Assembly (NCBI GenBank): GCA_003210655.1
Contig: QCUQ01000007.1
Span: 1-54,498 of the forward strand
Source: Prochlorococcus sp. AG-679-M10
GTDB lineage: Bacteria; Cyanobacteriota; Cyanobacteriia; PCC-6307; Cyanobiaceae
Length of the DNA: 54,498 bases
Reading direction: 5' to 3'
The notes beneath the pieces are model-generated. The model was not told the origin of the DNA. It saw only the letters and a list, made by a program, of their open reading frames with translations, and made no database searches. Shown piece after piece: positions 17,444 to 46,527 of the stretch; the stretch's first letter is position 1, and each line of letters begins with the position of its first letter. The position numbers and the translations under genes are program-made.

Positions 17444-17450
17444 AAAAGAT

Positions 17451-17505
17451 GGGGGAAACCCCATACTCCTCACACACCAAATCGCCCGATTTATCGGGCT
17501 TTTTT
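17451..17505 (+). ncRNA. yfr1: Small RNA Yfr1
   Basis: About 55 nt. A 5' stem (GGGG, AAA loop, CCCC, about 17452-17462) is followed by the single-stranded core ACTCCTCACACACC (17465-17478). A Rho-independent terminator stem GCCCG-ATTTAT-CGGGC (17484-17499) with a T-run follows. This is the known structure of the ultra-conserved cyanobacterial sRNA Yfr1, which is described between guaB and trxA in Prochlorococcus, exactly as here. In MED4 it is abundant and pairs with porin and other mRNAs. Ends are estimated to within a few bases. Confidence 0.95.
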
Positions 17506-42903: not shown

Positions 42904-43674
42904 ATGGCTACTTTAATTGCAGATAATTTAACTTATTCTTATTCAAAACAAAGCAAGCAAGCTTTAAATAAAGTTTCAGTTCAAATAAAACCAGGAACAT
43001 TGACTGCGCTTGTTGGACCAAATGGAGCTGGTAAATCAACTCTTTTGAAATTATTGCAAGGACAAAAAAATCCTGATATTGGAGATATAACTATTGATGG
43101 TGAAAGTTTAGTTAGAACTAGATCCCAGGTTGCACTTATGCCACAAAGAAGCTCAATGAATTGGAAATTTCCTATTACTGTTGAAAAATTAGTCTCATTA
43201 GGTCAAATAAAATATTCAAAATCAAAAAATACTAATCTATTCCAAATAAAGGCTCTTCTCGCAAATCCAAAGTCTTGGGTTAATAAATGTTGCGAATTGG
43301 AAGCAACAATGCAAAGAGTTGGCATTTCAAATCTTGCAAATAGAAGACTTGATTCTCTTTCAGGTGGACAACAACAAAGAGCACTTTTAGCTAAAACTTT
43401 AATGTCTCCTGCAAGAATTCTTCTGCTAGATGAACCATGTGCTGCATTAGATCCTCCCGCAAAGGACGATTTTCTTAAGATAGTCCGTCAACTTGCAGAT
43501 GCAGGCTTAGCTTTGTTTATAAGTAGTCATGATTGGGGCTCATCTCTCAATAGTTATGATCATGTAGTTGTTTTAGATAAAACAGTATTAGCTTCCGGAA
43601 CTCCCAATTCAATACAAGACAAATTAGATGATCTTAATATTAGTTCTTTAAAAGAAAATAATTCTTGTGATTAA
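42904..43674 (+). CDS. znuC: Zinc ABC transporter ATP-binding protein
   Basis: 256-aa ATPase. Walker A is GPNGAGKST (38-46), the Q-loop region is LMPQRSSMNWKFP, the ABC signature LSGGQQQR is near 155, and Walker B is ILLLDEPCAALD. An insertion of about 20 residues (NLFQIKALLANPKSWVNKCC) lies before the signature. It powers zinc import with ZnuA and ZnuB. It converges with zur (14 bp). Confidence 0.92.
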   Translation: MATLIADNLTYSYSKQSKQALNKVSVQIKPGTLTALVGPNGAGKSTLLKLLQGQKNPDIGDITIDGESLVRTRSQVALMPQRSSMNWKFPITVEKLVSLGQIKYSKSKNTNLFQIKALLANPKSWVNKCCELEATMQRVGISNLANRRLDSLSGGQQQRALLAKTLMSPARILLLDEPCAALDPPAKDDFLKIVRQLADAGLALFISSHDWGSSLNSYDHVVVLDKTVLASGTPNSIQDKLDDLNISSLKENNSCD

Positions 43675-43688
43675 AGATATTTTTAAAT

Positions 43689-44087
43689 TTAACTCTGAGT
43701 TTGATAACAGTTTTGGCAAAGGCCGAAATATTCAAGTGTATGAAACAAAAGTTGAAATTTTTTTGGGTTTTTCTTAGGACTATGAATATCTTTTACCGGA
43801 CAACCTTCCATTTTGGATGTTTCTCCACATTGAACACATGTCAGATGGTGAATATCTCTATCAACCGGAGTGTAAAGTACTTCACCTGTTGGAAGATGTC
43901 TAGATCGAATTAATCCATGTTTTATAAGAACTTGAAGATTTCTATAAACTGTTGTCAAACCCATAGGTTTGCCATCAATAATCAATTGCCTATGCAATTC
44001 TTGACCACTCAATTCATCATCACATTTTTTAAGTTCTTCAAGAAGTTGCTCTTGTCTTTTGGTAATGTCAGGCTTGGTTACCATCAT
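43689..44087 (-). CDS. zur: Fur-family zinc uptake regulator
   Basis: 132 aa from the ATG at 44087; an in-frame TTG two codons upstream is less likely. It has a winged-helix DNA-binding half (about 5-85, with MGLTTVYRNLQVLIKHGLI as recognition helix). A dimerisation half carries HHLTCVQCGET and CQNC, the structural zinc Cys pairs. Placement inside the znu cluster and the dyads near znuA/C and cobW favour Zur over Fur or PerR. Confidence 0.88.
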   Translation of the reverse strand: MMVTKPDITKRQEQLLEELKKCDDELSGQELHRQLIIDGKPMGLTTVYRNLQVLIKHGLIRSRHLPTGEVLYTPVDRDIHHLTCVQCGETSKMEGCPVKDIHSPKKNPKKFQLLFHTLEYFGLCQNCYQTQS

Positions 44088-44140
44088 TTTCAAGGTCTTT
44101 TAATGTCCTGTTTTTCTGATCATAACGAATCATACGATTA

Positions 44141-44929
44141 ATGTCTTTTTTAAACAACTGGTGGTTAATTCCTTTAATAATTACTATTTTCTCTGGAATC
44201 TTATGCCCAGCTATGGGAACAGTATTGATTACTCATAGAAGACTATTACAAGTAAATTTAATTTCTCATTGTGTTTTACCGGGACTAGCTTTAGCTCTAG
44301 CTTTAGGTATTCATCCTTCAATTGGAGGAGTTATAAGTGGTCTTGTTGGTGCAATTATTGCGGAGAGTTTAACTAATAAAAAAAGTGAAAATTATGAAGC
44401 AGTTATGAATACAATTCTTGCTGGCATGCTTGGTTTTGGGGTTTTACTAATTCCACTTCTTGGGATAAGAATTGATTTAGAGGCAGTATTATTTGGGGAT
44501 TTATTAACCGCAAACCTTAGCGATTTGTTAAGAACAATTATTGCTTTTCTAACATTCATTTTATTAGTAACGTTCGGATATGAAAAAGTTGTATATGTCG
44601 GCTTAGATCCAGAGGGCGCCTCAGCTAGTGGAATAAATGTGTCTTTGTTAAACCTAGCTCTAAGTTTCACGACGGCACTCGTTATCGTTAGTTCAATGTC
44701 AGCTGTTGGAGTAATTTTAGTAATTGCATTACTCTCAACACCTACTTTATTAGGACTTGATAAAGCACAAAGTCTAAGGATTGCAATGATGAGATCTTCA
44801 TTCTTTGGACTTTGTATTTCTCTATTGGGTTTTATTCTTTCAATTGTTTTTAACTTATCTCCTGGACCTGCAATAAGTGTTATTTGCGTTGCTTCGTTAA
44901 TAATTCCAAAAATTGGAAATAAATTTTAA
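44141..44929 (+). CDS. znuB: Zinc ABC transporter permease
   Basis: 262 aa with about eight membrane helices. It has the ABC-3 family blocks MGTVLITHRRLLQVNLISHCVLPG and GVILVIALLSTPTLLG. It is the membrane channel of the ZnuABC importer. It is divergent from zur across 53 bp and separated from znuC by the reversed zur gene, so it has its own promoter. No clear match to the Zur dyad is visible upstream. Confidence 0.92.
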   Translation: MSFLNNWWLIPLIITIFSGILCPAMGTVLITHRRLLQVNLISHCVLPGLALALALGIHPSIGGVISGLVGAIIAESLTNKKSENYEAVMNTILAGMLGFGVLLIPLLGIRIDLEAVLFGDLLTANLSDLLRTIIAFLTFILLVTFGYEKVVYVGLDPEGASASGINVSLLNLALSFTTALVIVSSMSAVGVILVIALLSTPTLLGLDKAQSLRIAMMRSSFFGLCISLLGFILSIVFNLSPGPAISVICVASLIIPKIGNKF

Positions 44930-45742: not shown

Positions 45743-45913
45743 TTAAATTATTATTTGCTTCGTTTTAGGAATATATTTATCAGGATTCTCCTCAATATAT
45801 CTAAATGAATATTTTACAATTCCACCAATAATTGAAAAAAGAATAATTGTAGTAAAAATGTAAATTACTTTCTTGTACCTTTTTTCTTTTGAAAATATCT
45901 TGCACCAATACAA
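45743..45913 (-). CDS. 56-aa single-helix membrane protein, unknown
   Basis: Starts at TTG (45913), the only start codon after an in-frame stop. It has a basic N-terminus (SKEKRYKK), one membrane helix (VIYIFTTIILFSIIGGIV, about 16-33), then YSFRYIEENPDKYIPK. The layout is convincing for a real small membrane protein. It is upstream-divergent from the Yfr10-like RNA. Confidence 0.6.
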   Translation of the reverse strand: MYWCKIFSKEKRYKKVIYIFTTIILFSIIGGIVKYSFRYIEENPDKYIPKTKQIII

Positions 45914-45992
45914 GTATTCTAGTTTTATTTTTTAATAAGTAAATAAACATAAATAGGGATTAATACCGTAGCTTTTTTAATTCGAATAAGTG

Positions 45993-45998
45993 TAGATT
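45993..45998 (+). promoter_or_regulatory. Candidate -10 element of Yfr10-like RNA
   Basis: TAGATT sits 5-6 bp before the first base of the AATCAGAAA stem at 46004. The spacing fits a sigma-70 type start at about 46004. No clear -35. Confidence 0.4.
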
Positions 45999-46003
45999 AA
46001 TTG

Positions 46004-46073
46004 AATCAGAAACTCCTCACACACATTTTTCTGATTGTAATAAGTACTCGCACAATAGTTTGAGTACTTTTTG
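46004..46073 (+). ncRNA. Yfr10-like small RNA (Yfr1 motif in a hairpin loop)
   Basis: AATCAGAAA (46004-46012) pairs perfectly with TTTCTGATT (46028-46036). Their 15-base loop CTCCTCACACACATT contains the Yfr1 core motif. A terminator hairpin follows: AAGTACTC (46042-46049), loop, GAGTACTT (46062-46069), then T's. Sharing the Yfr1 motif without Yfr1's structure is how the Prochlorococcus Yfr10 family is described. Ends are predicted, about 70 nt. Confidence 0.8.
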
Positions 46074-46143
46074 TTTTTAGCTTTGTGACAGTTAATATAC
46101 TTGCCCAATAAGTATTTACTCTCTCAAAAAATCATGTGAAATT

Positions 46144-46149
46144 TATATT
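46144..46149 (+). promoter_or_regulatory. Candidate -10 element of the Yfr2-family RNA
   Basis: TATATT at 46144-46149 would place transcription start at about 46156. If the real start is a few bases earlier, the transcript would hold the whole GTGTGTAGGAG segment. Confidence 0.4.
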
Positions 46150-46152
46150 GTG

Positions 46153-46238
46153 TGTAGGAGAGGTTTTACTAAATCAGTGGAAACAAGGAAACACTTGATT
46201 TATTAGAACCGATTTAGGCCCCTTTCAGGGGTCTTTTT
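46153..46238 (+). ncRNA. Yfr2-family small RNA
   Basis: A hairpin at 46171-46201 (AAATCAGTG pairing with CAC-T-TGATTT) presents two GGAAACA copies (46179-46185 and 46187-46193), the hallmark of the cyanobacterial Yfr2-5 family. A terminator follows: GGCCCC-TTTCA-GGGGTC (46217-46233) and five T's. The 3' end overlaps the stop codon of the convergent gene at 46237. The 5' end is estimated from a TATATT box. Members in Prochlorococcus are abundant and respond to light and nitrogen. Confidence 0.85.
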
Positions 46239-46527
46239 ATTTGCTGTAAAGGTTATATTGATTTAATAATTTGTTGAAATTTTCAACTCTTTCATTTTTC
46301 TCATTTAAAGGTCTTGAAAAATCAAGTACTGCAGCACAACATAATTGCCAGCAAGATTTTTCCTTAAGTTCTAATTTTTTGCATATATCCTTTGGAGCCA
46401 TTGTTAATGTATTTATCTCAGAAATATGTTGAATGGTTTCCCATAATTCTCCTTCTAAAAAGTCAAGTTCAATACTAGATAATAATTCTGTGGCTATATA
46501 ATCTTTTATTAGTTCAGTTAATTCCAC
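46237..46527 (-). CDS. Conserved 96-aa helical protein, unknown
   Basis: Starts at GTG (46527). The sequence is soluble and mostly helical, with three Cys and paired aromatics (DICKKLELKEKSCWQLCCAA). No membrane segment and no family I can name. Its stop codon overlaps the T-tract of the convergent Yfr2 RNA terminator, so Yfr2 transcription could interfere with its 3' end. Confidence 0.6.
   Translation of the reverse strand: MELTELIKDYIATELLSSIELDFLEGELWETIQHISEINTLTMAPKDICKKLELKEKSCWQLCCAAVLDFSRPLNEKNERVENFNKLLNQYNLYSK

Follow-up and report, generated by a model that had tools for sequence, protein, structure and literature searches.

In MED4, the small RNAs Yfr10, Yfr12 and Yfr18 are encoded directly adjacent to Yfr2, Yfr4 and Yfr5, respectively, and the near-complementary pairing of the two motifs involved was already written out in 2008 (PMC2518516). 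Table 1 of that paper prints sizes of 78 and 270 nt for Yfr10, the 270-nt form being a precursor of Yfr10 and Yfr2, and of 29 and 76 nt for Yfr18, for which the table gives no long form; Yfr18 itself was detected by northern blot and 5′ RACE. The same source names GlmY and GlmZ of E. coli as RNAs acting on each other, a likeness by description only, in that one small RNA alters the activity of another. Further functional data were published in 2019 (PMC6778093). In particular, Yfr2 enriches Yfr1 and Yfr10 in pull-down, relieves Yfr1 repression in E. coli as seen by GFP rescue, and inhibits ppa binding by Yfr1 or Yfr10, both of which in turn protect it from RNase E. According to the same paper, Yfr10 homologs lie upstream of Yfr2 homologs in high-light strains, and this proximity possibly enhances their interaction. 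The MED4 binding tests used Yfr10, Yfr1 and Yfr2, only bait enrichment (Yfr1/Yfr10) being given for the Yfr5 homolog, and Yfr18 is named nowhere in PMC6778093. Since adjacency, pairing, precursor and the proximity idea are in print, both the finding described here and its interpretation are already known. In other words, neither the motif pairing nor the proximity idea is new, and what was recognised, from the letters alone, is a published system in a genome whose assembly is incomplete. To this known system the present analysis adds small extensions, namely the reassignment of the pair to yfr18-yfr5, a broader distribution among relatives, a predicted read-through duplex and a candidate operator.

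The yfr18-yfr5 pair in the window

The window is the whole stretch of Prochlorococcus sp. AG-679-M10 DNA that was analysed (contig QCUQ01000007.1, 54,498 nt), from an assembly of 1.0 Mb that is 62% complete. Three Rfam families reach the gathering threshold across it, namely Yfr10, Cyano-1 and Yfr1, and the first two share a single gap between genes. The features to which the text refers are the following:

17449..17502, plus strand: Yfr1, the other bearer of the motif (Rfam RF01116, 58.8 bits)
45959..45971, plus strand: candidate operator ATTAATACCGTAG, at about -46 to -34 of a start at 46005
45993..45998, plus strand: -10-like box TAGATT of the first RNA, with T, A, T and T invariant over 53 loci
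46005..46079, plus strand: Yfr10-family RNA, ortholog of MED4 Yfr18 by Rfam RF02362, MED4 alignment and fold (-16.1 kcal/mol, z -3.6)
46012..46024, plus strand: loop motif ACTCCTCACACAC, common to Yfr1, conserved except for its last base
46042..46079, plus strand: intrinsic terminator of the first RNA, an 8-bp stem followed by a T-run
46084..46093, plus strand: TGTGACAGTT, candidate GntR (CGRE1-like) site ahead of the second RNA, from conservation
46138..46143, plus strand: -10-like box GAAATT of the second RNA, within TGTGAAATT, 6 nt before 46150
46150..46239, plus strand: Yfr2-family RNA (Cyano-1), ortholog of MED4 Yfr5 by Rfam, mapped 5′ end and fold (-29.5 kcal/mol, z -4.1)
46150..46160, plus strand: anti-motif GTGTGTAGGAG, predicted to pair with the first RNA's loop and with Yfr1, invariant over 53 loci
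46179..46193, plus strand: GGAAACA-A-GGAAACA loop motif, invariant over 53 loci
46216..46239, plus strand: intrinsic terminator of the second RNA, from the terminator scan

A preliminary description of this DNA had placed two plus-strand units, named Yfr10-like and Yfr2-family, in a gap of 320 bp. Places, strand and family names agree with the Rfam matches, both of which exceed the gathering cut-offs: Yfr10 RF02362 matches at full length at 46005-46085, plus strand (60 bits vs a cut-off of 43), and Cyano-1 RF01701, the GGAAACA-repeat Yfr2 family, at 46148-46215, plus strand (65.1 bits vs 41). The gap measures 320-323 bp between flanking frames ending at 45913 and 46237, and the earlier size is correct provided that two listed open reading frames, of 49 aa (45801-45950) and 43 aa (45977-46108), are non-genes. 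At E 0.001, Pfam gives no match for the frame adjoining the second RNA. Close to the gap, at 42904-44929, lie an ABC ATPase, a Fur-family regulator and an ABC-3 permease, genes that likely form a metal-uptake cluster.

The assignment to one of the three MED4 pairs is based on alignment of the pair and of the DNA around it. The window aligns with the MED4-like genome G015 over 5506 nt at 95.2% identity, which is the entire G015 stretch compared, and the pair lies in the same place with the same neighbours. It aligns with MED4 yfr18-yfr5, with which it shares order, strand, spacing, motifs and flanking DNA at about 95% identity; the differences consist of scattered substitutions and of an upstream element that reads GTGG in MED4 and GTAG in the window. 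The MED4 pairs yfr10-yfr2 and yfr12-yfr4 comprise the same two families in the same order (PMC2518516), but they sit elsewhere in the genome, the Yfr12 motif is changed, and the yfr10-yfr2 type has a spacer of about 88 nt, whereas that of the window's yfr18-yfr5 type is about 66 nt. Judged by this comparison, the window's pair is the ortholog of yfr18-yfr5 and not of yfr10-yfr2, which corrects the preliminary description. G015, a member of the window's genus, carries Yfr10 at 346661-346738, the very coordinates printed for MED4 Yfr10, and the window is therefore placed among high-light Prochlorococcus. In the window's genome, Yfr10 matches three times (on C8, C7 and C11) and so does Cyano-1, with a same-strand Cyano-1 match after every Yfr10 match. 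For the window's copy, identity, orthology, conservation and predicted pairing are direct results of the analysis, and we consider it very probable that the gap holds the yfr18-yfr5 pair of high-light Prochlorococcus, with a regulator and its neutralising antagonist as neighbours.

In the first RNA, ACTCCTCACACAC occupies the 15-nt loop of an 8-bp stem (46005-46035); the fold thus bears out the hairpin loop recognised earlier, and a Yfr1-type motif within such a loop is in keeping with membership in the Yfr10 family. Apart from its last base, the motif does not vary, either in an alignment of 44 distinct rows or in one of 53 loci; in the 44 rows both stems are paired in 99.6% of cells, the terminator stem in 100%. 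Covariation was dropped as proof of the stems: the signal is weak, because the sequences hardly vary, with one cell changed on both sides and 25 of 500 shuffles reaching as much. The terminator, composed of AAGTACTC...GAGTACTT and the T-run, has a 12-nt loop and was for this reason missed by the terminator scan, whose limit is a loop of 8; the one terminator that the scan found, vs 0.2 expected, is that of the second RNA.

The second RNA bears the GGAAACA repeat in its 5′ hairpin loop, in agreement with the part of the Yfr2-family definition taken from PMC1242208, and its 5′ end is complementary to the Yfr1 motif. Both copies of the doubled GGAAACA to which attention had been drawn (46179-46185 and 46187-46193) lie in the apical loop. 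Transcription starts had been proposed near 46004 and 46153. The second stands, although shifted to 46150, the position to which the published 5′ end of MED4 Yfr5 maps. The first, at about 46005, is less certain, because the data printed for MED4 Yfr18 disagree: its coordinates, complement(972284..972388) (PMC2518516), would place the start near 45938 in the window and suggest an end further upstream, whereas its 76-nt length, together with the Yfr10 start, fits about 46005 better.

Promoters and upstream elements

The preliminary description had attributed to each unit its own terminator and its own -10-like box. The terminators are upheld, and the boxes stand by conservation but not in the sigma-70 consensus scan, which returned four promoters vs 3.7 expected, hence no excess, and lists neither box; the promoters therefore rest on conservation. 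TAGATT sits 6 nt ahead of A46005. Further upstream, most of the ATTAATACCGTAG element is invariant over the 53 yfr18-type loci. A looser form, A[TA]T[AT][AT]TAC, begins 54 nt ahead of CTCC at 51 of these loci and 55 nt ahead of it at 2; among 24 yfr10-type loci it is found at 54 nt in 19 and at 55 nt in one, and is absent in four, and none of 14 other loci has it at that offset. In many strains the ATTAATACCGTAG element is, by eye, nearly palindromic (AGTA-N5-TACT).

The strict ATTWATACYSTAG pattern has 27 matches in 12 genomes, 15 at pairs and 12 elsewhere (hand count), vs 13 matches of its reversed control in the same genomes. Consequently, ATTWATACYSTAG as the mark of a larger regulon was rejected, the 12 matches elsewhere being no excess over the 13 of the control. 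MED4 yfr18 misses the strict pattern by one base, and the yfr10-type copy of G265 is not among the strict matches. The ATTWATACYSTAG-like element may be a candidate operator for a light/dark regulator; at its activator-like position, it could serve as DNA bait for the light regulators of yfr10, which PMC6778093 states to be unknown.

Ahead of the second RNA, the first seven bases of the candidate GntR site, TGTGACA (46084-46090), are invariant over 53 loci. A CGRE1 promoter motif bound by a GntR regulator has been described in two MED4 Yfr2-family homologs (PMC6778093). The longer TGTGACARTTA occurs once in the window's genome, as far as its 62% completeness allows this count to be read. In L026, L077 and MED4 yfr12-yfr4, TGTGACAGTT appears by eye as half of a palindrome resembling AACTGTCACATGTGACAGTT.

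Predicted pairing of the two RNAs

According to the explanation that we favour, the first RNA would expose the Yfr1-type motif CUCCUCACACAC in its hairpin loop and pair with mRNAs, and the second, endowed with the complementary GUGUGUAGGAG at its 5′ end and with the GGAAACA-repeat loop, would bind both the first RNA and Yfr1, thereby keeping them off their targets. Each RNA would have its own promoter and terminator, some read-through possibly giving a joint precursor, and adjacency would keep regulator and antagonist together, probably near each other when made. By analogy with the MED4 RNAs, the window's copy would be expected to behave likewise with respect to binding, loss of target binding, protection from RNase E and precursor formation.

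The near-complementarity of the motifs, put forward from the letters alone, is reflected in predicted pairing both in cofolding and in the read-through fold. The duplex of GTGTGTAGGAG with the first RNA's loop amounts to -16.9 kcal/mol. Cofolding the two RNAs yields a gain of -11.0 kcal/mol; dinucleotide-shuffled versions of the second RNA equal it in 2 of 200 cases and, less favourably, those of the first RNA in 13 of 200; for Yfr1 and the second RNA the gain is -14.9 kcal/mol, equalled by none of 200 shuffles. By energy, Yfr1 is thus no worse a partner of the second RNA than the neighbour is, and the idea that the second RNA would favour the neighbour over Yfr1 is unsupported (-11.0 vs -14.9). 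Yfr1 shares with the first RNA the motif and the partner Yfr2, but it carries the motif between two hairpins and not in a loop (PMC6778093), and it lies apart, at 17449-17502.

When 46005-46239 is folded as one molecule, the first hairpin is open in the minimum-energy structure (-66.6 kcal/mol, z -5.8), its motif being base-paired with the 5′ end of the second RNA. Taking at least 6 expected pairs per locus as the threshold, this intramolecular duplex is predicted in 51 of 53 yfr18-type loci, in 20 of 22 yfr10-type loci (from a set of 24 that includes one of g41 and two without a recognised 5′ end) and in 12 of a further 14, which comprise 11 of g56 and one each of g28, g31 and g11, vs 45 of 159 controls with a shuffled 5′ end.

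Spread of the tandem and alternative readings

Of 303 positions compared over 53 distinct yfr18-type loci, 110 show no variation, among them the anti-motif; the loci were selected for the presence of the motif and of the GGAAACA core, whose invariance is to be read accordingly. In these loci the loops, whose loss in related strains would have spoken against the RNAs, are kept, the core entirely and the first motif except for its last base. A survey of 151 genomes of the window's genus considered 150 matches each of Yfr10 and Cyano-1. Among the matches listed, 112 of the 150 Yfr10 copies are followed on their own strand, after 59-97 nt, by Cyano-1, in at least 92 genomes and with two spacing modes, about 66 and about 88 nt; 38 of 150 Yfr10 and 38 of 150 Cyano-1 copies have no listed partner.

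An exact tandem pattern (motif, 130-160 nt, AGGAG, 14-30 nt, GGAAACA) is matched in 96 of 400 family genomes and 6 of 59 genera, its reversed control giving 0 in every row listed. By hand count, the matching genomes number 60 of 68 in the window's genus, 30 of 41 in g56, 3 of 14 in g11 and one each in g28, g31 and g41; the exact pattern is unmatched in 8, 11 and 11 genomes of the first three genera, respectively. The unmatched g56 genomes include G258, as well as G294, which has the pair at a spacing shorter than the pattern allows (L109), and five g11 stretches (L161, L164, L167, L169 and L170) have it with a motif variant that the pattern misses. Among 19 further stretches outside the genus, 6 have a same-strand pair, with the motif upstream of the second RNA (the same five and L172), L163 is a possible case and L156 a facing one, and 11, including L159 and L160 of one genome, have no pair. 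Outside the genus, the exact motif lies upstream of Cyano-1 in 7 of 20 loci (L105-L124), all 7 from g56, and a low-light-type pattern, scanned in named genomes, returned 9 stretches, all Prochlorococcus. On these sequence matches, high-light strains are not the only bearers of the tandem. This spread goes beyond the high-light strains of PMC6778093, though others may know of it already, and it makes the proximity question comparable across clades.

Co-inheritance, also proposed in the preliminary description, holds insofar as the pair is kept together in the genomes examined, but there are exceptions. The repeat core lies downstream in 37 of 45 loci of the window's genus. Of the 8 scored without it, L022, L026, L077 and L095 have a mutated core, and L003 and L027 do have the core, their first hairpin being missed by the search word; L032 has a degraded second member and L028 none within 260 nt. 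L003 is the C11 pair of the window's genome (G000:C11:17066-17142), in which the first member, at 37 bits, falls below the cut-off, carries the motif TCTTCTCACAC and has a damaged hairpin, and in which the second member is intact despite the decay of the first. Some Yfr2 copies, MED4 yfr3 (L104) among them, stand alone, which speaks against the favoured explanation.

An alternative reading is that adjacency is an accident of the duplication of one ancestral pair and confers no present advantage. The three-out-of-three succession of Yfr10 and Cyano-1 in the window's genome would fit this account, as would the degraded first member of the C11 pair and, among 7 loci inspected, L028 without a second member in 260 nt and L032 with a degraded one. 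Nevertheless, the pair persists at spacings of about 66 and 88 nt across many genomes and several genera, and in L091 (g11), a single case, motif-bearing units flank the second RNA on both sides; we therefore find an accident of this kind rather doubtful. A different objection is that the pair could be mainly one read-through transcript, whose motifs pair internally to give an inert 1:1 dimer that is cut to release the RNAs. The minimum-energy fold and its recurrence across loci point in this direction, as does the 270-nt Yfr10-Yfr2 precursor printed in PMC2518516. That fold, however, represents just 0.3% of the ensemble, and its prediction ignores the order of transcription; during co-transcriptional folding the first hairpin would already be in place by the time the second RNA is made. 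Moreover, 45 of 159 controls with a shuffled 5′ end attain 6 pairs as well, the g28 and g31 loci (L125 and L126) fall below 6, and the table in PMC2518516 gives Yfr18 without a long form. The conserved first terminator and the conserved -10 box of each RNA favour separate transcripts, and we deem a predominant dimer unlikely.

Still less room is left for the idea that the first unit is merely a leader or terminator of the second and not a separate RNA. The common strand and the distance of about 70 nt would agree with it, but a -10 box, a terminator and a conserved loop motif all belong to the first unit itself, and in MED4 both northern blot and 5′ RACE detected Yfr18 (PMC2518516); by analogy with these data a mere leader is highly improbable and would already be refuted, unless the window's genome differs. 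For the preferred reading of two neighbouring RNAs, the transcriptional coupling suggested in the preliminary description may apply to the window's copy, with the MED4 Yfr10-Yfr2 precursor as precedent (PMC2518516). A bolder version, which we hold to be improbable as a whole, is that the pair is selected as a unit. Its halves would silence each other when read through, and the ratio of read-through to separate starts would set the amount of free motif. A light/dark regulator on ATTWATACYSTAG and a GntR regulator on the second promoter would let opposite light signals meet, and the arrangement would predate the high-light clade.

Individual loci depart from the usual layout. In L086/L156 (g2), a single case, the two RNAs appear by eye to face each other, and L028, with its Yfr10-type RNA and no second member in the 260 nt downstream, offers a natural test case for a lone RNA.
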